The notes beneath the pieces are model-generated. The model searched no databases and had not been told where the DNA came from. It was given only the letters and a program-made list of their open reading frames with translations. A program made the position numbers and the translations under genes. Below are positions 29,997 through 62,362 of a stretch of 64,000 bases of DNA, piece by piece (the stretch's first letter is position 1; each line of letters begins with the position of its first letter). The DNA comes from Deltaproteobacteria bacterium HGW-Deltaproteobacteria-2. Its GTDB lineage: Bacteria; Desulfobacterota; Syntrophia; Syntrophales; Smithellaceae. The stretch is from NCBI GenBank assembly GCA_002840505.1, contig PHBC01000001.1, forward strand, positions 195,767-259,766, read 5' to 3'.

Positions 29997-30044
29997 TTCA
30001 AGATAATAAATAATGTATAAAGACTAAGTTTAAAGGCTAATAAT

Positions 30045-30962
30045 ATGAATATTATTGTTTCCGGATCACTGGCTTATGACAGAATTATGGATTTCCCCGG
30101 ACACTTCTCCGATCACATTCTGCCTGACAAAATTCACATGATCAACGTATGTTTTCAGGTAAATGGCCTGAAAGAAAAGTTTGGAGGCACGGCGGGAAAT
30201 ATTGCTTACGCGCTCAAGCTGATGGGCGAGAATCCTCTTATCTGCGCAACCATCGGCCATGACTATCACAAATATTTTAAATGGCTCACGAAAAACGGCA
30301 TATCCACGGAAGGCATCAAAATCATCGCTGATGAATTTACAGCCGGCGCTTATATTACCACCGACCGCGCTGATAACCAAATAACAGGATTCAATCCCGG
30401 CGCGATGAAATATCAATCTACATTAGACTTCGACAAATTTCATCCTCAGGAAACAATTGTTATCGTTTCTCCCGGCAATTTCGATGACATGGTTAATTAT
30501 CCGCGCGACTGCAAAGCCAGAGGAATCGATTATATTTTTGATCCCGGGCAATCTTTGCCTATGTGGGACTCAAATGATTTGATTAAGGTCATAGAAGGAT
30601 GCCGACTATTAATAGTTAACGATTACGAACTGAGTCTGATCATTAATAAGACCGGATTGAAGAAGGAAGCCTTATTGAAAATGGCAGGAACAATTATCAC
30701 CACTCTGGGAGAACTCGGTTCACAGGTTTCCACGCAATATAGTGAAATCGCTATTCCCGCCTTTAAGGCAAAGAAGGTGGTAGACCCGACAGGCGCCGGA
30801 GATTCTTACCGCGGCGGTCTCATCAGCGGGCTGGCTCATGGCAAAGATATTGAACAAAGCGCGCTGATGGGCAGCGTTTGCGCTTCTTTTGCCGTAGAGA
30901 ATTACGGCACTCAGGAATATAGCTTTACTCTCGAAGAATTCAACGAGAGACTTAATGGCTGA
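30045..30962 (+). CDS. PfkB family kinase, adenosine-kinase-like
   Basis: This 305-residue ribokinase-fold enzyme has the substrate-binding GGTAGNIAYALKLMG near residue 46 and the catalytic signature DPTGAGDSYRGGLISGL near 243-259. The start (IIVSGSLAYDRIMDFPGHFSDHI) and overall shape match bacterial adenosine kinases such as the mycobacterial type. It would phosphorylate adenosine or a related nucleoside. The neighbouring deaminase also handles adenosine derivatives, which supports a nucleoside recycling pair. Sugar-kinase activity cannot be ruled out. Confidence 0.85.
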   Translation: MNIIVSGSLAYDRIMDFPGHFSDHILPDKIHMINVCFQVNGLKEKFGGTAGNIAYALKLMGENPLICATIGHDYHKYFKWLTKNGISTEGIKIIADEFTAGAYITTDRADNQITGFNPGAMKYQSTLDFDKFHPQETIVIVSPGNFDDMVNYPRDCKARGIDYIFDPGQSLPMWDSNDLIKVIEGCRLLIVNDYELSLIINKTGLKKEALLKMAGTIITTLGELGSQVSTQYSEIAIPAFKAKKVVDPTGAGDSYRGGLISGLAHGKDIEQSALMGSVCASFAVENYGTQEYSFTLEEFNERLNG

Positions 30963-31029
30963 CAGAAATTATTACAAGTAGTTTTCCCTATTTGAAATCT
31001 TTGCAAGATAATAGAATATTAGATATATA

Positions 31030-31614
31030 TCATTCGGAACTTTTCCCCATCGCGTCCCTATAGTTTGTAATATTTTTCCTGTGATTAAATAAGATAAGCA
31101 GAAAAGTTGCCAACGCACCCAATACCGCGCTGAATTGCCAGTTAAGGTTTGAAGCCTGTCCGCAAGCCAGAGTAAAAACCATAAAAAATGATGCAATAAA
31201 AGTAATTCGGATAATCCCATAAACGACGAGCCATATTCCCGCCGATATTATTGCCGCCCATGGCGCGACAAGAATCGTAAATCCTAAATAGTTGGCCACG
31301 CCTTTCCCACCGTGGAAACCGTGAAAGCAAGGGAAACTGTTTCCCAAAATAAGAAAAAAACCCGCCCAGGGAAACAAAGGCTCTTCTAAAAAACAAATCG
31401 CTAAAAACGCAATTATTATTGCCCTGCCGATATCCAGCAAAAAAACAACTGTCGCCCATACTATTCCCGCCTGGCGGTATACATTTGTTGTTCCGGCGTT
31501 GCCGCTAAAACTCAAGCGGGGGTCTCCCTTACCGGTCAATTTAAAAAAAATAATGGCGAAATTTACAGACCCGGCAAGGTAAGCAAAAAGATAAATTAAA
31601 AATGTTTTCCCCAT
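31030..31614 (-). CDS. plsY: Acyl-phosphate:glycerol-3-phosphate acyltransferase PlsY
   Basis: This 194-residue membrane protein has five helices and the three conserved PlsY motifs: AYLAGSVNFAIIFFK near the start, SGNAGTTNVYRQAG, and FPCFHGFHGGKGVANYLG. It moves an acyl group from acyl phosphate to position 1 of glycerol 3-phosphate at the inner membrane. It is the last gene of the minus-strand lipid cluster, 19 bases after the double-hotdog dehydratase gene, which suggests the cluster product is put on glycerol phosphate. A housekeeping PlsY may exist elsewhere. Confidence 0.93.
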   Translation of the reverse strand: MGKTFLIYLFAYLAGSVNFAIIFFKLTGKGDPRLSFSGNAGTTNVYRQAGIVWATVVFLLDIGRAIIIAFLAICFLEEPLFPWAGFFLILGNSFPCFHGFHGGKGVANYLGFTILVAPWAAIISAGIWLVVYGIIRITFIASFFMVFTLACGQASNLNWQFSAVLGALATFLLILFNHRKNITNYRDAMGKSSE

Positions 31615-31633
31615 TTCCCTTTACCCTTGCCCC

Positions 31634-32497
31634 TTAGCCCTTTTCCTTTATCCAATCTGGCGGACTCATACGCCCTTTCGTCACATCCTTCATCTTGACG
31701 CCTTTGATATATTCACACATTACGTTATCCTTATAAATCCACGCGTCAAACAGCAACGATTCCTTGGTAATACTCACCGGCACAACGCGTCCGAGATATC
31801 CTTCTCTCTTTTTCGCTTTTTGATAAATTATTCTTTTTCCAAATCCTACAGGAAAGGAAACAATATTGGCAAAGCGCTGGCCCCAAACACAAGCGGCATG
31901 CATTATTGCATCCAGAGGAAATGGAGAGCCCAGAAGATCTTCATCGGCTTCACAGTCTCCGCCCGAAATATAAGCGAGCGCACCCTCGGATGAAACCGAT
32001 AAATCACCCATGATATTTTGGTAAGCCGCTCCAAAGGTAACCAGTTCACGGTAAATAGTTGCTGATGGCACGCTGATGCAGTCGCCTTTCAGTTTATTTA
32101 CTACACGAAAAGGAGGCGGATAAAACTCTTTTGGGCCGATCACACAAAACTCCACCCGCATGTGTTCAACTTCGCGACTGATTGTTCCTGTTTTTGATTT
32201 CATGGAAGTTAAAAGTGAAGCTGCAATAATTCCATTCCCGTAATTTTTCATATCGATAATAACCGGCTGGTGCTCAATATCCGGTGTAATTGTCAGAAAG
32301 CGTGAAAAGACTGCATTCTGCAGACAGCTTATTTCTGCTTGCGGATAATTGGTTTCTATCGCTCGAGTTAAAACAATAAGGGATTCAACCGCCGGCAGGA
32401 TTACTTTACCCTCTAAATGGTGATCCCGCAGATAGGGATGGATCTCAACATCACATTGATACCGCTGGCGCTGATTTAAACGGGAAACGATTTCCAT
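31634..32497 (-). CDS. Double-hotdog dehydratase-like protein (PKS-DH family)
   Basis: This 287-residue protein has two hotdog halves. The first has RYQCDVEIHPYLRDHHLEGKVILPAVESLIVLTRAI, with the catalytic-type His in HPYLRDHH followed by the LPA loop. The second contains SPFPLDAIMHAACVWGQRF, with the expected acidic residue. This is the layout of polyketide synthase dehydratase domains, here as a free-standing protein. I start at ATG 32497 (MEIVSRLNQRQ), overlapping the thioesterase gene by 22 bases; the frame opens further upstream without support. It probably dehydrates a 3-hydroxyacyl-ACP. Confidence 0.78.
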   Translation of the reverse strand: MEIVSRLNQRQRYQCDVEIHPYLRDHHLEGKVILPAVESLIVLTRAIETNYPQAEISCLQNAVFSRFLTITPDIEHQPVIIDMKNYGNGIIAASLLTSMKSKTGTISREVEHMRVEFCVIGPKEFYPPPFRVVNKLKGDCISVPSATIYRELVTFGAAYQNIMGDLSVSSEGALAYISGGDCEADEDLLGSPFPLDAIMHAACVWGQRFANIVSFPVGFGKRIIYQKAKKREGYLGRVVPVSITKESLLFDAWIYKDNVMCEYIKGVKMKDVTKGRMSPPDWIKEKG

Positions 32498-32955
32498 AAT
32501 TGAACCGTTTTCGGATCCACGGCCACGGGAGTGCCCGACAGATTCAAGGCGCAATGCTTTGTAAAGCCGCTGCAGATTATGTGTCCTTTTTCCGCATGCG
32601 TTATCAGGTAATCAAACTGCAGACGCACACGCTCCAGATTTACCGGCCGCGTATAGATATGCATCACATCATCGTAATACAGGGGCTGATAAAAACTGAC
32701 GCCCAAATCGAATATCGGATAAACATAGCCGCTTTCCTCGATCTCCTTGTAGGGATAAGCAATATCGCGCATCAGCGATGTCCGGCCGAATTCAAAATAA
32801 CGCAGATAATTGGAATGATAAACCACCTGCGAGCGATCCGTATCAATATACAAAACTCTGTACATCGAACGATGCCAGACAAGACCTGTGGTAAGATCGC
32901 GCACGTAACGCTCGTCATTATTGTATATTTCCGGTTTAAAAGGTTTGGGCTTCAT
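32476..32955 (-). CDS. Acyl-ACP/CoA thioesterase, YbgC-like hotdog
   Basis: This 159-residue 4HBT-fold protein has the active-site segment VLYIDTDRSQVVYHSNYLRYFEFGRTSLMRD (residues about 34-64); the D.D..V.YH.NY pattern is that of YbgC. It may release the finished chain from ACP or edit wrong chains. GAGGAG lies just before the ATG, inside the 3' end of the upstream ketoacyl synthase gene (3-base gap). It is translationally coupled on both sides. Confidence 0.88.
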   Translation of the reverse strand: MKPKPFKPEIYNNDERYVRDLTTGLVWHRSMYRVLYIDTDRSQVVYHSNYLRYFEFGRTSLMRDIAYPYKEIEESGYVYPIFDLGVSFYQPLYYDDVMHIYTRPVNLERVRLQFDYLITHAEKGHIICSGFTKHCALNLSGTPVAVDPKTVQLWKSFPV

Positions 32956-32958
32956 TTC

Positions 32959-34224
32959 TCATACTCCTCTGAAAATAACACAGCAATTTGTTCCGCCGAA
33001 ACCAAAGGCGTTGGAAAGAGCAATTTCGTATTTCTGTCTGCGCGCTTCATTAGGCACGACATCAATATCGGCAAAATCAGGATCAGGCACGTGGTTGATT
33101 GTAGGCAGAATAACGCCTCTTTTCATTCCTTCGATCGTCAGAGCCGCTTCAATGGCGGCGGTTGCGCCCAGCGTGTGTCCCAACTGCGATTTATTCGAGG
33201 ACACGGGAATCTTTTCTATTTTTTTACCGAATACTTCCCGCAGACATTTTACTTCCGTACTGTCCCCTTTGGGTGTGGAAGTGCCATGTGCGTTGATATA
33301 TTGGATATCTTCCGGCTTTAAATCAGCGTCTTCAATTGTTTCCTTTAGCGCTCGTATAATTGTCGTGGCATTAGGACTGGTGTAATGATGGGCGTCTGAT
33401 GTCCATCCGATACCCAGAACCTCGGCTTTGGGTTTAAGACTATATGCTTTAATTACTTCATCCGCTGCCAGAACAACAACGCCAGCGCCTTCTGAAAGAA
33501 CAAAGCCTTTGCGGTCCATACTGAAAGGCCGCGACGCCAATGCCGGATTATCATAAGCGCGATCTTTGGGAGTAACTTTGATCGTGGCGTTCATGTTGGC
33601 AAAGCCGTGAATAATCTCGGGTAGAATGGGAGTATCGGCGCCGCCAGCCAGAACAAAATCACAATCGCCATCCCTGATCATTCTTGAACCGATGCCGATC
33701 GCATGGTTGCCTGAAGCGCAGGCTCCCTGCGGCGAAAAAATGGGTCCGGTAAATTTTAGCAGCATCCCCGCTTTGCCCGAAGGAAGATTTGCGCACAAAT
33801 TAGGCAAAAGATAGGGACTGACCCGAAGCGACCCGCGATGTTCCAGATCATGAATAGCAATGCGAAAAGCATCTGAACCGTTTATAGCCGAGCCGATAAG
33901 ACAGGCCATTCTTGGAGCAATCTGAGCATCAACCTCAATTCCGGAATTTTGCAAAGCCTCCTTGCAAACCGCCATTGTTAAAATCACAAAAGCAGCGTTC
34001 CAGTTATAAACTTCCTTCGCGTCGGTAAAATCAAGATCCAAAGGATACCAGTCCGGTATTTCTCCGACTATGTCGCAAGCTGATTCGACTTTACAGCGGG
34101 TTACTTTGCGAAAACCTGCCTCACCTTTGATTGCCCTTTTCCACGTTTTTTCAAACGTGCTTCCCAGCGGAGTGGCCGCGCCGTAACCAACAACAAAGAC
34201 TTTTCTGTTCTTCGGGGCTTTCAT
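32959..34224 (-). CDS. Beta-ketoacyl-ACP synthase, KAS II type (second copy)
   Basis: This 421-residue condensing enzyme has the full Cys-His-His triad: the Cys in SPQGACASGNHAIG, the first His in INAHGTSTPKGD, and the second in NKSQLGHTLGATAA. It ends with ALSNAFGFGGTNCCVIF. It elongates acyl-ACP with malonyl-ACP. It lies 17 bases after the other synthase gene. Both copies keep their catalytic residues, so this is not a synthase plus inactive chain-length-factor pair. Confidence 0.93.
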   Translation of the reverse strand: MKAPKNRKVFVVGYGAATPLGSTFEKTWKRAIKGEAGFRKVTRCKVESACDIVGEIPDWYPLDLDFTDAKEVYNWNAAFVILTMAVCKEALQNSGIEVDAQIAPRMACLIGSAINGSDAFRIAIHDLEHRGSLRVSPYLLPNLCANLPSGKAGMLLKFTGPIFSPQGACASGNHAIGIGSRMIRDGDCDFVLAGGADTPILPEIIHGFANMNATIKVTPKDRAYDNPALASRPFSMDRKGFVLSEGAGVVVLAADEVIKAYSLKPKAEVLGIGWTSDAHHYTSPNATTIIRALKETIEDADLKPEDIQYINAHGTSTPKGDSTEVKCLREVFGKKIEKIPVSSNKSQLGHTLGATAAIEAALTIEGMKRGVILPTINHVPDPDFADIDVVPNEARRQKYEIALSNAFGFGGTNCCVIFRGV

Positions 34225-34241
34225 AATATGATAATTATCCT

Positions 34242-35492
34242 CTAGTCAATTCTACGAAAAATCAGGCAGGAATTACACCCACCAAAACCAAACGCGTTTT
34301 TCAGCACAAATTCCTGTTTTAATTTTCTCGCACCTTCAGCAACACAATCAATATCAATTTCCTTATCGGGAATATAATTTATTGTAGGCAGTAAAGTCTC
34401 TTTAATCATTCCTTCCATGGCCAATATAGCTTCAATGGCGCTGGAGGCGCCCATCGCGTGACCAAGTTGAGATTTGTTCGCCGATACAGGTGGAATATTT
34501 TTGCCGAAAATATTGTGCAGGGCATCAGCCTCTACTTTATCCCCTACTTTTGTGGATGTTGCATGCGCATTGACTGCGTCAATGTCTTTCGCCCGCAAGC
34601 CGGTATTGCTTATAGTTTCCTCGATGCATCTTTGTACCGTTGTCAAATTGGGCGAAACAAAATGACTGGCATCAGATGTCATTGACCATCCGGCCATTTC
34701 TATTTTTGATTTAAGCCCATGAGCTTTCGCGAATTCATCGGTTGCCAGAATGATACAACCCGCTCCTTCTGAAACTACAAACCCGCGCCGGTTGACTGAA
34801 AAAGGCCGGCTGGTTTTCTCCGGCAGCTCTTCCGGCTGTCCTTCTTTCGGACGATACGCACCGTTCATCGTGGCAAATCCCGCAACTATGGGCTCAACCA
34901 GAGGGAAATCTACCGCACCGCCGATAACTATATCCGCCATATTCCGCTGCAGCAGCATCTCACCGATTATAAGCGAAGTAATTCCGGTAGCGCAAGCCGT
35001 AATCGTTGAGCAAATCGGCCCCGTCGCTCCAGTAAGAATGGAAACCTTGCCGCCGACCATATTTATGCAGGAATTGGGATTGGTAAAAGGGTGAGGCATT
35101 TTCGCTTCTTTAATCATCAGACGATCAGCCTGTAAAACTGCATCTAAACCACCAACCGCTGTGCTAAAAGTAATCGCCACACGTGGCCCAATTTCTTTCG
35201 TGATTGCGATCCCACTTTTTTCCAGAGCCCGATGCACTACCAGAAGGGCATATTTAAAAATCGGTGAAGTCCAGTGCGCCATTTCCCGTGGCTGTAAAAA
35301 AGGATATGGACGAGAATCAATTTCCGCAACTTCACCGGCTACGCGTACCGGAAAATTTTCGCTAAGAGGAAATCTGGTCAATGCACCTATGCCACAGTCT
35401 CCGGCCAGAGCCCGCTGCCATTGATTATCCAAATCCGTCCCCAGTGAAGAAACGGCATCATAACCAAGTATTAATGTTTTCTTGGAAGCCAT
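34242..35492 (-). CDS. Beta-ketoacyl-ACP synthase, KAS II type (first copy)
   Basis: This 416-residue condensing enzyme has the active Cys in ICSTITACATGITSL, the first His in VNAHATSTKVGD, and the second in NKSQLGHAMGASSA, followed by LKNAFGFGGCNSCLIF. It is related to but clearly different from the gene downstream. The two may handle different chain lengths or substrates altered by the radical SAM enzymes. It follows the radical SAM genes after a 99-base gap containing a hairpin. Confidence 0.93.
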   Translation of the reverse strand: MASKKTLILGYDAVSSLGTDLDNQWQRALAGDCGIGALTRFPLSENFPVRVAGEVAEIDSRPYPFLQPREMAHWTSPIFKYALLVVHRALEKSGIAITKEIGPRVAITFSTAVGGLDAVLQADRLMIKEAKMPHPFTNPNSCINMVGGKVSILTGATGPICSTITACATGITSLIIGEMLLQRNMADIVIGGAVDFPLVEPIVAGFATMNGAYRPKEGQPEELPEKTSRPFSVNRRGFVVSEGAGCIILATDEFAKAHGLKSKIEMAGWSMTSDASHFVSPNLTTVQRCIEETISNTGLRAKDIDAVNAHATSTKVGDKVEADALHNIFGKNIPPVSANKSQLGHAMGASSAIEAILAMEGMIKETLLPTINYIPDKEIDIDCVAEGARKLKQEFVLKNAFGFGGCNSCLIFRRID

Positions 35493-35520
35493 AATTGCGT
35501 ACCTAAAAGGTATAAAAAAT

Positions 35521-35552
35521 CATCTCCCTCGGAAAAGGACTAACCGGAGATG
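35521..35552 (-). other. Hairpin in the gap before the ketoacyl synthase pair
   Basis: CATCTCC (35521-35527) and GGAGATG (35546-35552) pair, with GG/CC extending the stem. There is no U-tract, so it looks like a processing or pausing site rather than a terminator. Confidence 0.35.
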
Positions 35553-35591
35553 TTGATAATCAAAGTTTTCTATATCAAAAATTATCGGGGA

Positions 35592-36590
35592 TTACCAAGG
35601 AATAAAGTGATACAGTTTGGCAAACATTTCATAAACTTCAATCCAATTTTGCAAATCTTTGGTGGATTTCAAATGTTCACGTTTATTGACCATGATCCAG
35701 CTCATATGCGCTGCGCCGTCCTTGCAGGTGGAACAATCGCGCGTCGCCGAAGTGCAGCAACGATGAACAGTTTTTAAATCGGAGGCCCAGCGGGAAAAAT
35801 GTATTAAACGACGGGGACGGTTTTTTCTGTTGTCCAGCGATTCAGTAACAGAAGGGCATTCATTCCAGCCAAAGCTCCGTCCCATCATTTTTCCCGTGGT
35901 AATTATTTCATGATAGTATTTGCAGGAAATTACCGTACGCGGATAATGATCGAGCATCTCGTCCATCTCAAAGCGCAAATCTTTGAGCTCGCCTTCGCGC
36001 CATGAAAATCCGTCCACGCCTTCATCGTTGGATAAAAGCTGAAGATGCACTTTTAATCCGACATCGGCTATTCTTTTAATCACCGGTTCAATCTTACCCA
36101 ACTGACGCGGCGTTATCGTATAAAGATAATAGGTGTAGGCGTCACCCTCGTAATTCTTGCTGGAGACAGTAAAGGTATCACGCCCGCGGAGAACCTTCTC
36201 GTCTTCGCCGTTACCCCAAAGGGAAATTCCAACCATCATATCGGGGAATTTATCGCGGGGAATCTTAATCAGACCATTGGTGGCGCAATACGTGGGCAGG
36301 CGCTTGTAGAAAGCTTCGACACGATCCATGCACAAAGTCGGCTCGCCACCGATCAGAATTGCCAGATTTACTCCGCGCTCTTTTTCGCGGTCAATAAAAT
36401 CTTCCCACTTTTTGATATCCATTTCTTCGGTTGCAGCCTGATGCTCTCCCGAAGAAAAGAAAAAACACCCCTTGCAGCGCAAATTGCAGCGATTGGTTAC
36501 ATCATATATGGAACTGCGGATATTAAGACTGGAGATTTTCCTGTATCTTTCGTGCCATTCTTTATTTAGCAAGGAACTGACTGTGTTCAT
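35592..36590 (-). CDS. Radical SAM protein with C-terminal cysteine cluster
   Basis: This 332-residue enzyme has the radical SAM motif in IYDVTNRCNLRCKGCFFFSS (residues about 27-46; CNLRCKGC) and the glycine-rich SAM-binding strand VNLAILIGGEPTL. A C-terminal CCTSATRDCSTCKDGAAH resembles the auxiliary cluster region of SPASM-type enzymes. It is a paralogue of the gene just upstream (25-base gap). Neighbouring ACP and synthase genes suggest its substrate is an acyl chain on ACP. The reaction is unknown. Confidence 0.88.
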   Translation of the reverse strand: MNTVSSLLNKEWHERYRKISSLNIRSSIYDVTNRCNLRCKGCFFFSSGEHQAATEEMDIKKWEDFIDREKERGVNLAILIGGEPTLCMDRVEAFYKRLPTYCATNGLIKIPRDKFPDMMVGISLWGNGEDEKVLRGRDTFTVSSKNYEGDAYTYYLYTITPRQLGKIEPVIKRIADVGLKVHLQLLSNDEGVDGFSWREGELKDLRFEMDEMLDHYPRTVISCKYYHEIITTGKMMGRSFGWNECPSVTESLDNRKNRPRRLIHFSRWASDLKTVHRCCTSATRDCSTCKDGAAHMSWIMVNKREHLKSTKDLQNWIEVYEMFAKLYHFIPW

Positions 36591-36615
36591 TAATATTATC
36601 CAAACTATCTATTTT

Positions 36616-37713
36616 CTAATTTGTCGCCGCGTGTGGCGGTTCTAAAATTTTAGCGCAAAGATTTTCACCCTTCTCGTAACCCATTACCCAAACGGACAGA
36701 TAAGTATCCACATAATCCAGCCATGATTTAAAAATATCCACACTGTTCACATGACGGTAAAGGCGCGCTGTGACCACCGCGGAGCCGGCGGCGTAATGAC
36801 GGCAATCTGCGCAATCCGTATCCGGCACACAGCACGCAACAGACCTGTCCCAGTTAAGGTCTGTCCTGTATTGCCGGAAAGACCTTCCCAATCCGATATC
36901 CTGTGAAGGATTCTGACGGGGATATGAACAACCGTAAAGATCGTGCAAACCTTTTTTATGTGTATGCGCCACAGCGTTATAAACGGAAAAAAGAACGTTG
37001 CGCGGATATTTTTTCAAAAGTTCTATCATTATCTGCTTTGTCCGCTCAAGGGATTCATCATCATGCCGCAGATTTCCCGTGTAACCGACCGGTGCGGAAA
37101 AAACATTAAAGGTCAATTTGCAATTGTGGGCGATAAGTTCAGCAGCGACTTCCTTCACCTCATCTATGTTTTCCCGCGTAAAGGTATAAACAAAAACAGC
37201 ACGCGGATCGTTTTCATAATTCTCAATCTGTTTTTTCAAGAGATTTTTAGCTTTTCTGATTCTCAGGCTGGTTTCATCATTGCCCCAGACGGAAATATGC
37301 AGTTTATAGCCAACCGATTCCGGTATTTTTTTTAAACCATTGGTGGCAATACTGCCCAGCGGCATCTCCTGGTAGCAAACATCCAGCAATTCCGGCACCA
37401 GGGAAGGCTCCGCTCCTGCCAAAACAACGTAAGTAATGCCGCGCGCCTTCTCTGCCCGCATCAGTTCACGCCATGCTTCCACATCGCCAATTTCTTTGGC
37501 AAATTGTTTTTCGCCTTCATAATAATAACAGCCGTCGCAACGGATATTGCAACGATTGGACATATCGTAAGTTGATTCCCGTAGAAAAAAATACTTCCGC
37601 ACCTTTTCCCAGCGCTCTTTAACTTCGCGCTCGGCTAAAAGCTCGGAAAATTTCGGTTTGGTTGATTCCAGATTTACTTCACGATTGACCTGCATAGATC
37701 TTTCAGCTTCCAT
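36616..37713 (-). CDS. Radical SAM protein with C-terminal cysteine cluster (paralogue)
   Basis: This 365-residue enzyme has the cluster motif in YDMSNRCNIRCDGCYYYEG, the strand ITYVVLAGAEPSL, and a C-terminal CCVPDTDCADCRHYAAG for a possible second iron-sulfur site. Overall layout matches the next gene, so the two arose by duplication. I start at ATG 37713, 3 bases after the ACP stop codon; TTG at 37716 is in frame. The tight ACP-radical SAM spacing argues for coordinated synthesis. Confidence 0.88.
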   Translation of the reverse strand: MEAERSMQVNREVNLESTKPKFSELLAEREVKERWEKVRKYFFLRESTYDMSNRCNIRCDGCYYYEGEKQFAKEIGDVEAWRELMRAEKARGITYVVLAGAEPSLVPELLDVCYQEMPLGSIATNGLKKIPESVGYKLHISVWGNDETSLRIRKAKNLLKKQIENYENDPRAVFVYTFTRENIDEVKEVAAELIAHNCKLTFNVFSAPVGYTGNLRHDDESLERTKQIMIELLKKYPRNVLFSVYNAVAHTHKKGLHDLYGCSYPRQNPSQDIGLGRSFRQYRTDLNWDRSVACCVPDTDCADCRHYAAGSAVVTARLYRHVNSVDIFKSWLDYVDTYLSVWVMGYEKGENLCAKILEPPHAATN

Positions 37714-37716
37714 CAA

Positions 37717-37992
37717 CTAATTTTTTGTGGCAAGTTTTTCTTCAATATATTCGGAAATCAGGCGGATGGTTTTTAATTTGGGATAATCATCTTCGTCTAT
37801 TGTAATCCTGTACTCATCCTGCAAGACCAAAGCGATAGTTGCCAGATCCATGCTGTCAATGCCCAGTTCATCCACCAGATCCATATCCGGATTAAATGTA
37901 TCCGCGGTAACATCTTCCAGTTTAAGCTCATCAATAATGATTTCGGCCACGTGCCGTATAATGCCTTTGATATCGTGACTTACAGGCATCAC
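37717..37992 (-). CDS. Acyl carrier protein (first in this part of the cluster)
   Basis: This 91-residue four-helix carrier has the phosphopantetheine serine in ELGIDSMDLATIALVLQDEY (about residue 45) and an acidic helix II. It differs from the ACP at 42669, so the cluster has two carriers. Specialised pathways often use dedicated ACPs to keep their intermediates apart from housekeeping fatty acid synthesis. GGAGG precedes the ATG. Confidence 0.95.
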   Translation of the reverse strand: MMPVSHDIKGIIRHVAEIIIDELKLEDVTADTFNPDMDLVDELGIDSMDLATIALVLQDEYRITIDEDDYPKLKTIRLISEYIEEKLATKN

Positions 37993-38026
37993 AATCCTCC
38001 TTACAATAATTATTTATATTTATTTT

Positions 38027-38401
38027 CTATCCATTTATTTTTTTAGCGGCAATCTGGCCGCTGCTAACAACATTTTCTTTATTTATCACTTTGAAAGAAA
38101 ATAAAATATTTTCACCCGTGTCTTCATAATTTATACTTATCGACAATGTATCTCCCGGCCTTACCGGCTGTGTGAACCTGATCCTTCTGAGCAAACGTAA
38201 TTGCAGCTGTGTTCCTTTCTTTAGCGCTTCTTCAATAATTGCCTGTTTAACTATATAAACTAAAGCTATTCCCGGAAGAATCGGCTCGCCCGGAAAGTGA
38301 CCCGAAAACCAGGGAGAATCAGCTGGCACATCTGCTAAAGCTTCAATATTATTATTAGTAGTTGCTTTTACCTCTTTTAATAAACTCCACTGATTTTCCA
38401 A
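38027..38401 (-). CDS. FabZ-like 3-hydroxyacyl-ACP dehydratase
   Basis: This 124-residue single hotdog protein has the FabZ/FabA-type active loop in PWFSGHFPGEPILPGIALVYIVKQA (residues about 30-54), with the catalytic His. The C-terminal strand SFKVINKENVVSSGQIAA fits the fold. The usual FabZ acidic residue (E in PGVLQIE-like segment) is not obvious: here the segment reads PGIALVYIVKQ. It may therefore act as a dehydratase with altered chemistry or as a binding protein. It lies 34 bases upstream of the ACP gene. Confidence 0.75.
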   Translation of the reverse strand: MENQWSLLKEVKATTNNNIEALADVPADSPWFSGHFPGEPILPGIALVYIVKQAIIEEALKKGTQLQLRLLRRIRFTQPVRPGDTLSISINYEDTGENILFSFKVINKENVVSSGQIAAKKING

Positions 38402-38675
38402 TATATATGCCTCATTGGCTACTTTCTTAATTAAATGCGCGCCAAAAAGTATAAATTTATATCATTGATTGTTTTTTCAATCAAAATATTTTTATAACGT
38501 CAATAAATAAATTTAATGAGACCCAGACTTCAGAAGCGAATAACCTAAAGGTCACTATAGGCGCGCTGAAGTCTGTTGGTCGAATTATCCCCTCGATTTT
38601 GGGGAAATAACGTGAATTTATCGTTTTGTAATGACCGCATTGCAAAATTCAGTTCATGCAAAAAGATACCAATAT
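38402..38675 (-). other. 274-base gap with two inverted repeats
   Basis: CAGACTTCAG (38524-38533) pairs with CTGAAGTCTG (38566-38575) around a 32-base loop. A second stem TTGATTG, six T, CAATCAA lies at 38465-38484. On the minus strand both stand between the radical SAM stop and the FabZ-like start and could form a structured leader for the downstream genes. No coding sequence is seen here. Confidence 0.45.
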
Positions 38676-40217
38676 TTAAATTTGGTCAGGTAATTTTCTT
38701 TTCACAAAGTCATAGAAATGATGATACTGGGCAAGAAACGTGAATGCCCGTCTAATGAGCTTCGGGTTTATCTTCCATGTTTCGATCAAGCTTTTGACGA
38801 ACAAGTTTCGTTCCGCCGGTGTTACCAGAAACATGAAGAAAAAAAACATTCTGACGCCATGGTAAAATTGTTTGGGATCAAATTTCTTATTCATATACAA
38901 AGAACTGCAATAATCAACATGCTGCAACCAGCTCAGGAGTCTTTCGCGGAATAGCTCCGGCTCGTATATTTTTTTGAATAGTTTGCAATATCTTCGCAGA
39001 AGCTCTTCGCGGCTCATCTGTTTTGGAATAATGTTTGTATAGAGTTGCCATTCCCCGGAAAAATCGTCGCCCAAGAGACGATCTTCCTTCTCCATGCGAT
39101 TATAGAGCGGCGTGTGCCTTGGTGCGTTCAGAAGGCTGATACCGACGATCGGGCTGTTGGTGTTGGTGAAAAATGCATAAAGTTCGTCAAAGACACCTTC
39201 ATCGTCGTGATCGAAGCCGACTATCATGCCAAGAAAGGGCATGATGCCGAAACGAGAAATGTGGTTGATGCGCTCGAAAATGTCATGTTTGAGATTATGG
39301 ACTTTCTTCACTTCTTCCAGGCTCTCCCTCCGGATAGTTTCGACGCCGAGAAACAGTACGGAGAAGCGCGCATCGGCGCACATCCGAAGCAGTTTTTCAT
39401 CATCGGCGATCTCCACTGTAATCTGGGTAGAAAACGAAAGGGGGCGCGACTGTGTGATATTCCAGGCGATGATGCTTTTCAGAAGTTTTTCCATGAAAAC
39501 CTTATCCGCCAGGAAATTGTCGTCGGAGAAAAAAACGGTGCGGGCGCCGATTTCATGGGCTTTCTGGATTTCCGCCATCACTTGCTCAACTGATTTGGTC
39601 CGCGGTTCTCTGCCCACATACTGGATTACGTCGCAGAACTCGCAGTTGTGGGGGCAGCCCCGGCAGGTCTGGACGTTGATGTTGATGTAATCATCGGCGT
39701 CGATGAGGGACCAGTCTGGCGCCGGGCTATCCTTCAAATCAATATAGGTCTGCTGGTGATAGACGGGTTTTGCCTTTCCTCTTATCCATTCATGAAGAAA
39801 CTCGGGCCAGGTGTATTCGGCCTCGCCGATAAAAAGATAGTCGGACAGATCGTCGCATTGATCGTGGTTGATACTGGCATAGGCGCCTCCCAAGGCAACC
39901 TTGACACCCCTTTGCTGAAATCCCAAGCATAATTCGTGGATCCTTTTTGAATGAAGTGTTGCACCCGTGACAGCAGCCAGATCGCACGGCATGTTCCAAT
40001 CCAGTTTGGAAACATTTTCATCACATAAAATATATTCCACGTTTACATCAGGTGGGGTCAGGGCCATGAGAGTGGCCAAAGCCGCATTGGGCATAAGGGT
40101 CTTGGCCCCCAGAATGCTGACCGTCCCTTGCATGGACCAGAAGTTTTCGGGATGTTTCGGCGCAATCAGGTAGATGCGTTTAAAATGATCACCGCTACCG
40201 TAACGTTTCGTTTTCAT
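38676..40217 (-). CDS. B12-binding radical SAM protein (with long C-terminal domain)
   Basis: This 513-residue enzyme has an N-terminal cobalamin-binding region (to about residue 150; VALGGAYASINHDQCDDLSDYLFIGEAE) and the cluster motif VQTCRGCPHNCEFCDV near 185-200. FFSDDNFLADK and FLGVETIRRESLEEVKKVHN follow, with a C-terminal DUF4070-like extension of about 150 residues. Relatives include hopanoid and chlorophyll-modifying enzymes, which carry out methylation or ring chemistry on lipids or porphyrins. Here the surrounding fatty-acid genes point to a lipid substrate. Confidence 0.9.
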   Translation of the reverse strand: MKTKRYGSGDHFKRIYLIAPKHPENFWSMQGTVSILGAKTLMPNAALATLMALTPPDVNVEYILCDENVSKLDWNMPCDLAAVTGATLHSKRIHELCLGFQQRGVKVALGGAYASINHDQCDDLSDYLFIGEAEYTWPEFLHEWIRGKAKPVYHQQTYIDLKDSPAPDWSLIDADDYININVQTCRGCPHNCEFCDVIQYVGREPRTKSVEQVMAEIQKAHEIGARTVFFSDDNFLADKVFMEKLLKSIIAWNITQSRPLSFSTQITVEIADDEKLLRMCADARFSVLFLGVETIRRESLEEVKKVHNLKHDIFERINHISRFGIMPFLGMIVGFDHDDEGVFDELYAFFTNTNSPIVGISLLNAPRHTPLYNRMEKEDRLLGDDFSGEWQLYTNIIPKQMSREELLRRYCKLFKKIYEPELFRERLLSWLQHVDYCSSLYMNKKFDPKQFYHGVRMFFFFMFLVTPAERNLFVKSLIETWKINPKLIRRAFTFLAQYHHFYDFVKRKLPDQI

Positions 40218-40325
40218 ACTAAACAGCCCGGCGCTACCATTTTTTATTTTAACAACTCTCGCCCTACATAATATCAGAAAATATGTAATATAAAAATGTC
40301 TACTTAATTTATATATATTTCGTTC

Positions 40326-41117
40326 CTAGTTAATTTCTCTGCCGATTAAGGCGGAAAGAGGAACACCTTTTAAATCTTTAACAATAAGACCCCGCAATAT
40401 CTTTTCAATCTCGGAAATTAGAACAGCACTGTCTTCTTTACCGCGCGGATTTGCATCGTGCAGTAAAATAATATCGTCGGCCTTAACCTTTTTAAGAATT
40501 CTCAAGCTAAGATTATTAACGCAGCGATTACCGGCATCGTAAGCGCGGCAATTGAAAGTTACACAAAACATCCCCAGTTTATTAAGAACTGAAGGAAGTT
40601 TGGGGCTGATTATTCCCACCGGCGGGCGGAAGGCCGGAGCGTTCACACCCATATCTTTAAGAACTTCCTGCGCCCGTGATACCTCCTGATAAAGATAATT
40701 ATACCTTCCCAGCATCAAAAAAGGATTGTGATGAAAAGAATGATTGCCTATAGTGTGTCCGCGATTAATTATTTCAGTAATTAGTTCAGGATGTTTCAGA
40801 GCATTGACGCCGGAAACAAAAAAAGTTGCCTTAACTGAATATTTATCAAGCAACTCCAGTATTTGTTTTGTTGTCGGTTCGGCAGGGCCATCATCAAAAG
40901 TCAGAGCAACCAGATTCTGGCCCGTATTACCGCGGCTGATTACAGGAAGGTAGAAACTACTCCGGTAACAAAAAGATGCGACGACACAAAGCAAGATATA
41001 TAAAAGTGCGATTATTATGGCGAGCAGTGAATCAACAAAGAAAGCCGCCGCGGCGACAAATAAAAAAACTATTCCGGTGATTTGGGCTGGACTTAAGGAT
41101 GACAACTTCTTTTTCAT
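40326..41117 (-). CDS. Polysaccharide deacetylase family protein, membrane-anchored
   Basis: This 263-residue protein has two N-terminal membrane helices (residues about 10-50), then a NodB homology domain: LVALTFDDGPAEPTTKQIL (motif 1, Asp-Asp pair), HTIGNHSFHHNPF (motif 2 metal histidines), and FRPPVGIISP (motif 3). Later DDIILLHDANP provides motif 5. It removes acetyl groups from a glycan at the cell surface or acts on a related ester or amide. Its presence inside the lipid cluster may mean the final product is a glycolipid. Confidence 0.9.
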   Translation of the reverse strand: MKKKLSSLSPAQITGIVFLFVAAAAFFVDSLLAIIIALLYILLCVVASFCYRSSFYLPVISRGNTGQNLVALTFDDGPAEPTTKQILELLDKYSVKATFFVSGVNALKHPELITEIINRGHTIGNHSFHHNPFLMLGRYNYLYQEVSRAQEVLKDMGVNAPAFRPPVGIISPKLPSVLNKLGMFCVTFNCRAYDAGNRCVNNLSLRILKKVKADDIILLHDANPRGKEDSAVLISEIEKILRGLIVKDLKGVPLSALIGREIN

Positions 41118-41133
41118 TTACGCATCCACCTCC

Positions 41134-41228
41134 GTCCCGATACGAAATCGGGACACCTCCGCCAGCGGAGGACATTAAATAACACCTTCCCTTTTCACCC
41201 TCCCTCAATCCCTCCCCTCAAGGGAGGG
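41134..41228. repeat. Three short palindromes in tandem
   Basis: The gap between the deacetylase and the radical SAM gene holds GTCCCGAT-ACGAA-ATCGGGAC (41134-41154), CCTCCGC-CA-GCGGAGG (41156-41171) and CCCTCCC-CTCAA-GGGAGGG (41210-41228). All stems are perfect. None is followed by a U-tract. They look like small repetitive hairpin elements of the REP kind. Confidence 0.55.
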
Positions 41229-41261
41229 AGGGCCAATGACGCATAACATTGTCGACTTGTT

Positions 41262-42611
41262 TTATTGGATAAGGTATTCCCACAGCGGCCCTGTAAATCC
41301 TCGTCTGTAGAGTTTCGGCAAAATGCGCGTCGCTTTCGCTTCGCCTGCACCGATAAGCCAGTTCAGACGGCCGTTGGCCTTATCCTCCACCATCTTCATA
41401 ATTTCCGGGGCGGTTATTCCCGAAGAGCGATAAAATACAGGCGGCAGGATATTTGTACCAGCAGCAATCTGCTCTTCACGCAGAGCAACCTCATACAAAG
41501 CGGTGTGCGGATAAATGCGGACGCCACAGAAAAAGAAAAAAACCGCTTTTTCTAGTTTATCGATTCCCGTCAATGTTTCTTGCAGAGTCTGTTTATTTTC
41601 ACCGGGACCGCCCAGCAAAAAATAATGGGCAATGTGTAATCCTGCATCAAGCGCCGACTGATGCGCAGTAAAAACTTCACCGGAAGTAAAAGGTTTGTGC
41701 AAATTGACCAGTACCGTATCCGATAAAGATTCCGTACCGAATTCCACATGCGTTAATCCGGCATCAGCCATGCGTTTGAAATAATCAGCCGGAGGAACGT
41801 TGGGAACAAAAAAGCCTCCCCACGGAATGGACACTCCCGCTTCAATGAAAGCCTTGGCAACCTGAGAGCTGTGATCATAACTGGCGTTGAAAGCGGAATC
41901 GGTTATAAAAATATATTTGGCGCCGGCATCCTGAAGTTCGCGGGCATTGCGGGCTATTTCACGCGGCTCATAAAAGCGCATCCGGCCACCCTCGATATGA
42001 GGGTAAGTACAGTAACTGCAGTGAAACGGACAACCTCTCTTAGTTTGCAGGTTAAGCATGCCACCATAAGAAAGATAAAAACTTGTATGATGACTGGCAG
42101 GATCGAAATGTCTGTTAATCGTGCCGCTATATGGCTCATAAACGATATCCGTTTTTTCTTTTGTCAAAACTCCCGGTATTTCTTCGACATTCGCCTTATT
42201 CTCCAAAGCATCCAGAAGCTGCGAGAGTCTTTCGCCTTCGCCGACAATGCCATAATCGGCATCAAGCGCCTGCATGAACTCAACAGGGAAAATTGTAAAA
42301 CCGCTGCCGCCTAGAATTATTTTTGCCTTGGAATTCGTTCTTATCTGACTCACTAAATTCTGATATTCCGGTAAAAAGCTCCGGCAGTTTAGCACATCGG
42401 TATTATCAATATTTCTGATTGATACTCCGGCAAAATCGGGCGAAAATTCTCTGATCATCGCTTCCAGACCTTCCGGACTGGAAAAATCATTTAAATCAAC
42501 AATTTTAGTCTGGTAACGGGAATCGAGAGAACCGGCCACATAATCCAGTCCCAGCGGATATACCGGATACGGAATTCTCAGAGTATTTGCCGAAATTAGC
42601 AGTACTTTCAT
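41262..42611 (-). CDS. B12-binding radical SAM protein of the lipid cluster
   Basis: This 449-residue enzyme has an N-terminal cobalamin domain (LLISANTLRIPYPVYPLGLDYVAGSL, then IILGGSGFTIFP and YGIVGEGE). The iron-sulfur motif is in LQTKRGCPFHCSYCTYPHIEG near residue 190, followed by YIFITDSAFNASYDHS and VEFGTESLSD. Its ends lie 57 bases from the upstream ACP gene and 144 bases from the deacetylase. It is the kind of enzyme annotated in other genomes next to lipid synthesis genes. The reaction, perhaps C-methylation or cyclisation of an acyl chain, is unknown. Confidence 0.9.
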   Translation of the reverse strand: MKVLLISANTLRIPYPVYPLGLDYVAGSLDSRYQTKIVDLNDFSSPEGLEAMIREFSPDFAGVSIRNIDNTDVLNCRSFLPEYQNLVSQIRTNSKAKIILGGSGFTIFPVEFMQALDADYGIVGEGERLSQLLDALENKANVEEIPGVLTKEKTDIVYEPYSGTINRHFDPASHHTSFYLSYGGMLNLQTKRGCPFHCSYCTYPHIEGGRMRFYEPREIARNARELQDAGAKYIFITDSAFNASYDHSSQVAKAFIEAGVSIPWGGFFVPNVPPADYFKRMADAGLTHVEFGTESLSDTVLVNLHKPFTSGEVFTAHQSALDAGLHIAHYFLLGGPGENKQTLQETLTGIDKLEKAVFFFFCGVRIYPHTALYEVALREEQIAAGTNILPPVFYRSSGITAPEIMKMVEDKANGRLNWLIGAGEAKATRILPKLYRRGFTGPLWEYLIQ

Positions 42612-42668
42612 AATAAGAGTAAAAACGCGCTATACTTTTACGGGTTATATATTCGTGTGAGATGAAAC

Positions 42669-42941
42669 CTAACCTTTAGTCTTTTGATTCTGGGAAATGT
42701 GAGTAGCCAGAGCGCGCACGGAAGCGAAAACCTTTACGCCCAGTTCTTTGTTTTCTATTTTAACGCCATAGTCTTTCTCAATCATCATCACCAGTTCCAA
42801 CACATCAATGGAATCAATCCCCAGATCGCCGCCCACGAGCCTTTCATCGTCTTTTATGTCTTCAGGCCCAACATCAATTAACCCCAGCGTCTCAATGATT
42901 TTAACCTTAAGTTCACTTATCATTATTTCAATCTGACTCAT
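42669..42941 (-). CDS. Acyl carrier protein (second carrier of the cluster)
   Basis: This 90-residue carrier has the phosphopantetheine serine in GGDLGIDSIDVLELVMMIEKDYGV (about residue 44), with the standard acidic recognition helix. It lies between the small membrane protein and the B12 radical SAM gene. Sequence differs enough from the ACP at 37717 that the two probably serve different partners. Confidence 0.95.
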   Translation of the reverse strand: MSQIEIMISELKVKIIETLGLIDVGPEDIKDDERLVGGDLGIDSIDVLELVMMIEKDYGVKIENKELGVKVFASVRALATHISQNQKTKG

Positions 42942-42988
42942 TTAATAACACTCCTGTTTTTTTATCCAGCGACCATACCAAGTCCGCT

Positions 42989-43399
42989 TCATTTATTTAT
43001 ATCATTTTCCGAATCTTTTATTGGGCTTGATCTTACAGTATTAATTTCATCACCAAGAATTTTTCCCAGCACTACCTTGGCAATCCAACGTCCCAGCGCT
43101 TTTACATATCGGGGTCCGGTAAGATACATACCCAACATCGTAATCAGCCAGGAAATGCCATAAGCCACGGGGATTCCGATAATACCAACCATTGGCTTTT
43201 TCAAATCAGCGGCAATTAACCCTACTATAAAGAATGACGGTATGACCATAATAAAACTAAAAACAATTAAAATAATCCCGATTTTTTCGGGTAGAGTATG
43301 CTTCTGTCTTAAAACAGTTAAATCAGCACGTTCATTTATAGCGTTCCTGAAAAATTCTTTACGGGCAAAATGAAGCGCCGCTTTTTTTATTATTCTCAA
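42989..43399 (-). CDS. Small two-helix membrane protein, N-terminus uncertain
   Basis: This is a protein of about 136 residues with two hydrophobic helices (IGIILIVFSFIMVIPSFFIVGLI and MVGIIGIPVAYGISWLITMLGMYL) and a Lys/Arg-rich flank. The open frame extends to 43513, but its first 35 or so codons come from the repeat element at 43413-43533, so they are unlikely to be original. TTG at 43399 with GGGGAA just upstream is a possible start; I use it. The insertion may have replaced the native promoter and start. Function unknown; it sits second in the lipid cluster, after the FabA-like gene. Confidence 0.55.
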   Translation of the reverse strand: MRIIKKAALHFARKEFFRNAINERADLTVLRQKHTLPEKIGIILIVFSFIMVIPSFFIVGLIAADLKKPMVGIIGIPVAYGISWLITMLGMYLTGPRYVKALGRWIAKVVLGKILGDEINTVRSSPIKDSENDINK

Positions 43400-43412
43400 A
43401 ATATTCCCCGTG

Positions 43413-43533
43413 GGCTGTTGAAAAACGCTCAACTGCTGCGTTGCGCTGCAAACAGCACCGCTCAACGTATGCAAATATACGCCTCGCGGTTCAGCTTTTT
43501 GCCCGCCTTGCATTTGAACATTTTTGAACAGCC
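43413..43533. repeat. MITE-like element with 13-base terminal inverted repeats
   Basis: The element starts GGCTGTTGAAAAA and ends TTTTTGAACAGCC, which are inverted repeats with one mismatch, 121 bases end to end. On the minus strand its centre reads GAGGCGTAT, ATTTGC, ATACGTTGAG, the same central palindrome as copies A to C of the other repeat family. It has no gene of its own. It overlaps the apparent 5' end of the small membrane protein gene. Confidence 0.8.
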
Positions 43534-43641
43534 TCCAATCATGGGATTTTTCAAAAACTGCAATATTTCTTGTAAAAAATATACGTCAATATTTTAAAAT
43601 GGTAATTCAGGAAGCGTCTGGTGGACAGCTTTATAAGCTAA

Positions 43642-44232
43642 TTACCTTTCCATGATCCCGCCGACAGAATGTTTTGAACGAAGCGGATAATCTTTATAAG
43701 CTATATTCTTAAATACTCCCGTACGCGCTTGTCCAACAGTCGCAATCAACTCATTATCTATGTAAATACGCCCGTCGCCGATTACTATGCTCGCACCCGA
43801 TTCCTTCAAAAGAGAATAACGCCGCACATCAACTTCAAAACGAACACATTTGTTAAAAGGGCGAATTTGACCGTTGAAAGCTACCTCGCCACACCCCAGC
43901 GCTCTACCCGTACCCAGCGAACCCTTCCAAACGCAAAAGAAACCAAGTAATTGCCAGATAGCGTCCACTCCCAGGCATCCGGGCTGTACCGGATCGCCTG
44001 AAAAATGGCACTGAAAATACCATGCATCCAAACGGATGTCCTGTTCGGCTATTATTTTTCCCTGCTTACCGTCGCTTTCTATCAATAATATGCGATCAAC
44101 CATAAGAAAGGGAGGAGCCGGAAGCTTCGCGTCAAAATGTTCCGGAGGATCCGTTATCAGCCGGCCATAAGAAAAAGCAAGAAGTTCTTCGAAGTCAAAA
44201 TGATCGCGCTTTAAAAATTCCTGATATTTCAT
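43642..44232 (-). CDS. fabA: FabA-like 3-hydroxyacyl-ACP dehydratase/isomerase
   Basis: This 196-residue protein matches FabA along its length: LPAPPFLMVDRILLIE, AWYFQCHFSGDPVQPGCLGVDAIWQLLGFF with the catalytic His and Asp, and GRALGCGEVAFNGQIRP. FabA dehydrates 3-hydroxyacyl-ACP and isomerises the trans-2 double bond to cis-3, the branch point to unsaturated chains. It is the first gene of the cluster, behind the promoter at 44294-44322. This suggests the product is built from, or contains, an internal double bond that later enzymes could act on. Confidence 0.92.
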   Translation of the reverse strand: MKYQEFLKRDHFDFEELLAFSYGRLITDPPEHFDAKLPAPPFLMVDRILLIESDGKQGKIIAEQDIRLDAWYFQCHFSGDPVQPGCLGVDAIWQLLGFFCVWKGSLGTGRALGCGEVAFNGQIRPFNKCVRFEVDVRRYSLLKESGASIVIGDGRIYIDNELIATVGQARTGVFKNIAYKDYPLRSKHSVGGIMER

Positions 44233-44293
44233 AATTATTTTTCTCTTCCCGTATTAAAAGTACGATAATACAATGATTTCCGCTAACTATAGT

Positions 44294-44322
44294 CAAATAT
44301 AAGAAAAGGGTTCTTTTGTCAA
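44294..44322 (-). promoter_or_regulatory. Sigma-70 promoter of the lipid cluster
   Basis: On the minus strand TTGACA (44317-44322), 17 bases, TATTTG (44294-44299) lie about 62 bases before the FabA-like start codon. Confidence 0.58.
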
Positions 44323-44369
44323 AAGAAAAAATGTGCGCGTTTCGTTTTTTAATGGCGTTGAAAATGAAT

Positions 44370-44399
44370 TTGCGTTATAAAGTTGCGCAACTGTATAAT
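44370..44399 (+). promoter_or_regulatory. Promoter with palindromic operator before the rubredoxin fusion
   Basis: TTGCGT (44370-44375), 18 bases, TATAAT (44394-44399) lie 20 bases before the ATG at 44420. The spacer contains AGTTGCGCAACT (44381-44392), a perfect 12-base palindrome suited to a dimeric repressor. Confidence 0.68.
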
Positions 44400-44419
44400 T
44401 TAAGATGAGGAGAATAATA

Positions 44420-45106: not shown

Positions 45107-45285
45107 TACTGAAAATGTTGCGTTGAATTTTGCATTGAGAAGCTATTTCCTGTACTGATAAACTTCCTAAACTCGTTAATTGACGAATTCTTAAAATTAT
45201 GCAAGATTATAAAAATTAATGATTATATACAGTGGCACTGCCGGAAAGCCAGTCAACAAACAAATAACATAGGAGGTAACAACTA

Positions 45286-62358: not shown

Positions 62359-62362
62359 CAAT

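Follow-up and report, generated by a model that had tools for sequence, protein, structure and literature searches.

A conserved acyl carrier protein gene cluster with paired radical SAM proteins and a candidate role in glycerolipid synthesis in Smithellaceae

The window analysed here is a stretch of 64,000 nucleotides and forms part of contig 1 (PHBC01000001.1) in the genome of Deltaproteobacteria bacterium HGW-Deltaproteobacteria-2 (Smithellaceae, Syntrophales, Desulfobacterota; 3.28 Mb, 11 contigs, 98.4% complete). On its minus strand, at 31030-44232, lies a close array of 15 open frames in which acyl carrier protein (ACP)-dependent fatty acid enzymes are mixed with radical S-adenosylmethionine (SAM) proteins. 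Eight of these genes, in the order FabZ-ACP2-rSAM3-rSAM4-KS1-KS2-thioesterase-PKS-DH (KS: ketoacyl synthase; PKS-DH: polyketide synthase-type dehydratase), constitute the core of the cluster. The reading that we favour, and regard as reasonably probable, is that the cluster encodes a dedicated acyl-ACP line with a radical step, the product of which is delivered by a PlsY-type acyltransferase to the organism's own glycerolipids. This reading draws on gene content, intact catalytic motifs, conserved order, the co-occurrence of PlsY and the lack of a PlsX match in this genome; from these we infer what the enzymes act on and in what sequence, the formation of a complex, the chemistry and the product.

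Gene array and conserved core

All 15 genes that a preliminary description had placed here are present as open frames, with gaps of 0-274 bp and one overlap of 79 bp. In order of transcription, followed by the divergent neighbour, they are:

43642-44232, minus: FabA-type 3-hydroxyacyl-ACP dehydratase/isomerase (FabA), accessory (PF07977, PRK05174)
42989-43513, minus: small membrane protein, no family match (open frame)
42669-42941, minus: acyl carrier protein 1 (ACP1; family match, carrier serine)
41262-42611, minus: B12rSAM1, B12-binding radical SAM protein (TIGR04072 rSAM_ladder_B12)
40326-41117, minus: polysaccharide deacetylase-like protein (family match; TFDDG and NH-H motifs)
38676-40217, minus: B12rSAM2, radical SAM protein with DUF4070, accessory (Pfam)
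38027-38401, minus: FabZ-like hot-dog dehydratase (FabZ), core (Pfam/NCBIfam)
37717-37992, minus: acyl carrier protein 2 (ACP2), core (family match, carrier serine)
36616-37716, minus: rSAM3, radical SAM protein, core (CxxxCxxC and C-terminal CC-x5-C-x2-C)
35592-36590, minus: rSAM4, radical SAM protein and rSAM3 paralogue, core (C-terminal CC-x6-C-x2-C)
34242-35492, minus: KS1, FabF-like ketoacyl synthase, core (Cys-His-His intact)
32959-34224, minus: KS2, FabF-like ketoacyl synthase, core (Cys-His-His intact)
32476-32955, minus: YbgC/FadM-type 4HBT thioesterase, core (TIGR00051, 78.2 against a cut-off of 68.7)
31634-32554, minus: PKS-DH-like dehydratase, core (profile match, His and Asp motifs)
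31030-31614, minus: PlsY-like glycerol-3-phosphate acyltransferase (PF02660)
44405-45106, plus: divergent flavin reductase-rubredoxin fusion, neighbour of the cluster (family match, conserved position)

In what follows, loci are labelled L, genomes G and contigs C, each with a number, G000 being the genome under study. The sample for the order held 60 genomes, G000 included, with 24 from other families (spanning 20 families) and 17 from its own genus. rSAM4 was found in 42 of the 60 and a TIGR04072 match over cut-off in 40; 39 genomes have both, three rSAM4 only, one TIGR04072 only and 17 neither. Twenty longer loci were fetched around TIGR04072 matches, and 18 of them contain the rSAM3-rSAM4 pair, always preceded by FabZ-ACP2 and followed by KS1-KS2 (L052 ends at a contig edge within KS2, and L053 has an insertion of ca. 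4 kb ahead of KS1). The genomes of the two loci without the pair, L048 and L050, carry rSAM4 on other contigs. Median identity to the window is highest for rSAM4 and KS2 (86%) and for KS1, ACP2 and rSAM3 (82-83%), and lowest, B12rSAM2 aside, for PKS-DH (53%), the small membrane protein (55%) and FabZ (57%); in a comparison of 12 cluster proteins rSAM4 also has the lowest median distance. The pairwise distances correlate with those of rSAM4 at 0.51-0.86, which fits joint inheritance without distinguishing it from common ancestry.

At the level of the phylum, 395 genomes gave 28 rSAM4 matches, reduced to 27 by dropping G077, whose score (110 bits) is at the level of rSAM3 cross-matches; seven of the 27 genomes belong to the same family as G000. 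From 19 genomes outside the order we picked 20 distant loci by rSAM4 (G140 gave two, and G226, with its match at a contig start, was left out). The eight core genes stand in order in 14 of these, two of which have insertions (L150 between KS1 and KS2, L134 ahead of PKS-DH); among the others, L152 ends at a contig edge, L151 is without FabZ close to the end of its contig, and L135-L138 have a changed or incomplete arrangement. Taken singly, 19 of the 20 loci have rSAM4 together with several acyl-ACP genes, L137 being reduced. A search for the gene order in relatives had been proposed in the preliminary description, and since this arrangement is found again in other families, both within the order and across the phylum, the clustering is beyond chance.

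The same comparison sorts the radical SAM genes, all four of which had been counted as part of the acyl-ACP cluster. That assignment stands for rSAM3 and rSAM4 and for B12rSAM1 in half of the distant loci, and is lost for B12rSAM2; the pair is linked to acyl-ACP genes in relatives and thus does not behave as unlinked radical SAM genes would. B12rSAM2 was rejected as a core enzyme because it has no orthologue in the 20 order loci (there is a single 22% match), although relatives with 51-96% identity lie near the cluster in L073, L077, L134, L137 and L138. FabA, present in 11 of 15 loci of the family, was likewise rejected as a core gene, being absent from the other four and from all 20 distant loci; both genes are therefore accessory. 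TIGR04072 was also tried as a marker of the cluster and rejected: it passes its cut-off in 83 of the 395 phylum genomes, as against only 27 with rSAM4, and none of the 23 top-scoring genomes (482-698 bits) has rSAM4, so that the marker of the cluster is the rSAM3/rSAM4 pair. Of the 27 rSAM4 genomes, 24 have a TIGR04072 match at E <= 1e-80 (19 of them over cut-off), in some cases away from the cluster (as in G140, G188 and G313).

PlsY, the radical SAM pair and the proposed pathway

The strongest evidence for a glycerolipid product is the co-occurrence of PlsY. The cluster's protein is the sole PF02660 match in the genome (124.6 bits against 24.1) and keeps its motif. Over the 60 order genomes, PlsY and rSAM4 are both present in 41 and both absent from 17, leaving one genome with rSAM4 only (G034, 85% complete) and one with PlsY only (G002, 330 contigs); among the 24 genomes of other families, nine have both, 15 have neither and none is discordant (Fisher 8e-7, uncorrected for relatedness). 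The best PlsY shares a contig with rSAM4 in 33 of the 42 PlsY-bearing genomes, at a distance of 4.5-9.2 kb. A PlsY for housekeeping should occur whether or not a genome has the cluster, yet PlsY co-occurs with rSAM4, and we therefore rejected mere housekeeping for this order. Since PlsY goes with the cluster, the product is probably placed on glycerol phosphate, which strengthens an earlier suggestion to that effect. The protein falls below the TIGR00023 equivalog cut-off (98.3 against 137.2 bits), and PlsX (PF02504) has no match in G000, the same model matching eight of 14 control genomes; the acyl donor of PlsY may thus be something other than a PlsX-made acyl phosphate.

Among the radical SAM proteins, rSAM3 and rSAM4 reach only the general Radical_SAM model of Pfam (30.7 and 30.9 bits against a cut-off of 29.5), and neither passes a cut-off in NCBIfam. 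They are paralogues, the rSAM4 profile matching rSAM3 at 107-125 bits. The four C-terminal cysteines of each are invariant in 50 of 50 sequences, with a spacing that we take to be unlike that of SPASM domains, and the CxxxCxxC motif is conserved in both as well as in B12rSAM1. Sactipeptide/SPASM-type proteins and the tetraether lipid synthase Tes are their best solved relatives (rSAM3 profile: SkfB 4e-9, Tes 1e-4; rSAM4 profile: SkfB 0.003, Tes 0.25), but the alignments cover only part of the radical SAM core. More distant relatives of rSAM3 and rSAM4, below 60% identity and at a level of 35%, were found on 15 plasmid records; a CC-x4-6-C-x2-C motif is carried by those from Alteromonas, Burkholderia, Tistrella and Methylomagnum (Pseudomonadota). 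Among those examined, the ones of Alteromonas and Burkholderia have a 'Phenylacetic acid catabolic protein' and MaoC or PaaI-family proteins beside them, that of Tistrella adjoins hot-dog and oxygenase-like frames (read by eye), and that of Methylomagnum adjoins an ACP and a nonribosomal peptide synthetase; this company suggests thioester- or carrier-bound substrates. A cassette of 'Phenylacetic acid catabolic protein', rSAM4-like protein and MaoC lies near a Tn3 transposase and a recombinase (L162:7174-9529, L163:3174-5529), and occurs with identical protein accessions on an Alteromonas mediterranea plasmid and an Enterobacter hormaechei IncC plasmid. No relative is encoded in the 42 stretches of viral contigs that matched a pattern.

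The array had been described as holding two B12-binding radical SAM proteins. This is borne out for B12rSAM1, which matches TIGR04072 over model positions 1-443 (389.5 bits against a cut-off of 360); in B12rSAM2 the radical SAM domain and DUF4070 are clear, and the B12 domain is under the Pfam cut-off (16.2 against 32.1 bits). By profile, the closest solved chains of B12rSAM1 are tryptophan C2-methyltransferase (2e-45) and apramycin oxidoreductase 4 (5.8e-29), a kinship that allows methylation or other chemistry. Its nearest named relatives are from Smithella sp. UBA2180 (96-97%, split over two pieces of contig) and, over the full length, from Smithella sp. SCADC (94%), and a scan of named genomes with B12rSAM1 gave 21 loci, all from Smithella, Syntrophaceae, Smithellaceae or unplaced deltaproteobacterial records.

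Residue conservation in the other enzymes was judged from 26-53 sequences per protein; some genomes enter twice, as unnamed and named loci, and sequences that fell below set identity limits or contained unknown residues were excluded, as they were from the distance correlations above. The catalytic residues of KS1, KS2, FabA, FabZ, PKS-DH, the thioesterase and both ACPs, as well as the [4Fe-4S] motifs, are invariant or nearly so. KS1 and KS2, both FabF-like and under the FabF equivalog cut-offs, have Cys-His-His invariant in 49 and 47 sequences, respectively; the carrier serine is invariant in 48 ACP1 sequences and also kept in ACP2, and the GH of the FabZ motif GHFPG is conserved in 52. FabA is the top of four PF07977 matches in the genome (132.7 bits), with His76 and Asp90 invariant in 26 sequences; it reaches PRK05174 (199 against 124) and misses TIGR01749 fabA (160.1 against 238.15). 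The PKS-DH label holds in part: the protein stays just under the Pfam cut-offs (26.4 against 27; 19.7 against 23.7), whereas a 17-sequence profile matches chains of CurF, CurJ and CurK (best E 3.5e-9), which we take to be their dehydratase domains, and the motifs D44-H45 and D215/H219 are conserved in 96-100% of 46 sequences. Neither a ketoreductase nor an enoyl reductase is among the 15 genes, and the system is thus not self-contained, contrary to what had been proposed.

The route that we envisage would begin with KS1 and KS2 extending a chain on ACP2 (and ACP1), into which FabZ, FabA and the PKS-type dehydratase would put double bonds, with a ketoreductase supplied by another locus of the genome. 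As tandem paralogues that probably form one complex, rSAM3 and rSAM4 would then act on the ACP-bound chain together with B12rSAM1, in a radical step foreign to ordinary fatty acid synthesis that might be a desaturation, the formation of a C-C bond (a ring or bridge) or a methylation. The YbgC-type thioesterase could edit or release the chain, and the specialised PlsY would transfer it to glycerol 3-phosphate, the donor apparently being no product of PlsX. The link with PlsY predicts where the product would be located, namely in the glycerophospholipids.

Several points weigh against this reading. Within the examined stretches of the 20 distant loci, PlsY occurs in three and B12rSAM1 in ten, so that the glycerol and B12 steps may not be general outside the order; within the order, the best PlsY lies on a different contig from rSAM4 in nine of the 42 genomes. 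Co-occurrence of linked genes speaks for linkage and not for function, and the absence of PlsX covers the genome under study only. Predicted structures of rSAM4 and rSAM3 are poor (mean pLDDT 38.5 and 54.4), and Foldseek with the rSAM3 model returned no match at E <= 0.001, the best being radical SAM proteins at E 1.1e-3 and above; a substrate for the pair is thus without structural support.

A bolder form of the proposal, which we consider unlikely, is that in Smithella relatives and in other members scattered over the phylum a two-protein enzyme of rSAM3 and rSAM4 (a new family) forms a ring-containing or cross-linked acyl chain on ACP2, which a PlsX-independent PlsY then delivers to glycerolipids. 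Syntrophs live near the thermodynamic limit, and a tight membrane that leaks few protons would suit such a life. If true, this would extend such lipid pathways beyond the anammox bacteria for the first time.

Published clusters and competing products

The preliminary description had called the array a candidate new lipid pathway. That overstates its novelty, because clusters combining type II fatty acid synthesis with radical SAM genes have been in print since 2009, and the 'ladderane' class of antiSMASH 3.0 cites that work. The anammox and Desulfotalea precedent that it named is real: Rattray et al. 2009 (PMC2649909) describe four fatty acid clusters of Kuenenia, three of them with radical SAM genes, find D. 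psychrophila to be strikingly syntenic, and report similar clusters from Geobacter and Pelobacter carbinolicus. Like the clusters delimited there, ours combines several fatty acid synthesis genes with several accessory genes. FabZ, ACPs, FabF paralogues, a B12 radical SAM protein and a polysaccharide deacetylase-like gene are shared with the gene lists given in that source for Kuenenia stuttgartiensis and Desulfotalea psychrophila, and the adjacent rSAM3 and rSAM4 near FabZ and ACP recall, by their description, the radical SAM pairs Kuste3342/3343 and DP1853/1855. The window adds FabA, PlsY and PKS-DH, and both of its KS keep Cys-His-His, so that no FabB/F paralogue with replaced active-site residues is present; from the same gene lists the cluster lacks FabG, the phytoene-desaturase-like and phenylacetyl-CoA-ligase-like genes and the non-canonical FabF. 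New here, then, is a form that has FabA and a PlsY bound to the cluster but neither phytoene-desaturase nor non-canonical KS genes. A Cariaco Basin study reports 'ladderane' clusters in Desulfobacterota and other phyla; that class label says nothing on the product. We found no paper on Smithella with radical SAM and fatty acid biosynthesis, and no mention of ladderanes among the matches listed, which is weak evidence. Ladderane biosynthesis is unsolved, and the compact, strongly conserved core of eight genes leaves fewer candidates for a radical step on acyl-ACP and allows smaller gene sets to be expressed.

Rattray et al. also proposed anaerobic synthesis of polyunsaturated fatty acids and hydrocarbons, by which a polyene chain would be joined head to head by OleABCD into C31-type hydrocarbons. 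C31:8 and C31:9 hydrocarbons, and no ladderanes, are reported from D. psychrophila, which has a related cluster; the three dehydratase-like genes of the window, FabA type included, would fit the making of polyenes, and G000 itself has an OleA-like protein with OleB-, OleC- and OleD-like neighbours. The OleA-like protein was recognised by its match to solved chains, presumably those of OleA, at 200 bits as against 82 for the next group. Its distribution nevertheless differs from that of the cluster. From 14 matches, two (G024 and G033, 25-28% identity) were dropped; the remaining 12 are all among the 17 genomes of the genus, with none in the other 43, and 32 of the 42 rSAM4-positive genomes have no OleA. 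A link of OleA to the cluster thus found no support over the 60 genomes (Fisher 0.32), and without this association head-to-head hydrocarbons are not the general end product. The OleABCD-like set belongs to one minus-strand run at ca. 106.9-117.9 kb of contig 1 (L082:3926-14885), where it is joined by a separate KS, a stretch resembling an ACP, a dehydratase (PF07977), two flavoproteins of phytoene-desaturase-like type and genes that by eye are FabG- and FabI-like; so equipped, it looks like a self-contained hydrocarbon locus, by OleA found only in the genus, that need not draw on the cluster. Shulse and Allen tie the hydrocarbon of Geobacter bemidjiensis, the same as that of D. psychrophila, to a pfa-like synthase instead; the cluster has no multi-domain PfaABCD proteins. 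We hold this rival as a whole to be unlikely, and a polyene acyl chain without Ole to be a possible product.

Ladderanes or other ring-containing fatty acids seem to us rather improbable. They are suggested by the name of TIGR04072 (rSAM_ladder_B12) and by the larger loci in three other families of the order: L056, the one that was annotated, is extended by a third KS and a double ketoacyl synthase, an acyltransferase, a flavoprotein of phytoene-desaturase-like type, a further B12 radical SAM protein and, on its PKS-DH homologue, a 4'-phosphopantetheinyl transferase domain, most of which are common to L047 and part to L055. This fuller set, shared in part by L134, resembles the published Kuenenia and Desulfotalea gene lists. 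Against it stand the lack of ladderanes in D. psychrophila, the lack of the phytoene-desaturase and non-canonical KS genes in the window, and the fact that B12rSAM1 belongs to the lower-scoring TIGR04072 group, the highest-scoring proteins sitting in genomes without rSAM4. Genes drawn from a pool of 34 Kuenenia candidates did not yield ladderanes in E. coli (Javidpour et al. 2016); the authors themselves describe their trials as far from comprehensive.

An aryl-polyene-like or other pigment lipid of the outer membrane is very improbable. The layout of two ACPs, KS, dehydratases and a thioesterase resembles aryl-polyene clusters, and the FabZ-like protein stands exactly at the ApeI-like cut-off of Pfam (28.5 against 28.5 bits). 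Hallmarks of aryl-polyene clusters are the activation of an aromatic starter and Ape exporter proteins; the 15 genes include neither an enzyme for an aromatic starter nor an exporter, we know of no radical SAM enzymes in such clusters, and PlsY points to a glycerolipid. A second module, at ca. 757-764 kb of contig 1 (L087:2332-8708), counts in favour of this rival, as it has genes for a KS, a flavoprotein and an acyltransferase and others that by eye look ACP- and FabG-like. Its phytoene-desaturase-like protein (46%; 759.8-761.3 kb), KS3 (71%) and acyltransferase (47%) match cluster genes of L056, the first being the closest seen in G000 to a gene type missing among the 15; the module may be the missing half of the pathway in this genome.

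Neighbouring genes and other loci

The divergent flavin reductase-rubredoxin gene adjoins FabA. Of the 15 family loci examined, 14 have it beside the cluster, as does L050 of another family (66% identity); it was not found in the 20 distant loci. Its product is a possible electron carrier. The frame of the small membrane protein (174 aa) starts within a dispersed repeat at ca. 43413-43548, so that the true protein is probably at most ca. 141 aa. Copies of this repeat (121-134 bp, 79-87% identical) lie at 43413-43548 of the window, L084:11038-11157 and L003:2163-2295. Counts of promoters and terminators are near those of shuffles (33 against 28.9; 23 against 17.4), and an Rfam scan of 30000-46000 and a tRNA scan were uninformative.

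Elsewhere in the window, 48780-63892 holds genes for cell division and for the cell wall (Mur ligases, MurG-like, MurB, FtsQ, FtsA, FtsZ), followed by a radical SAM protein with a Radical_SAM_N2 domain (10 of 12 frames scanned). Three consecutive radical SAM-like genes, one of them 32% identical to B12rSAM2, lie at ca. 192.1-196.7 kb of contig 1 (L088:8137-12694) and extend into the first kilobase of the window. The genome carries several secondary fatty-acid-like loci, as judged from further KS sets on contig 5 (ca. 183-194 kb and 204-214 kb) and contig 3 (0.4-10 kb) (L083, L084, L086); those of L083 and L084 include radical SAM-like genes 24-25% identical to the B12 radical SAM queries.

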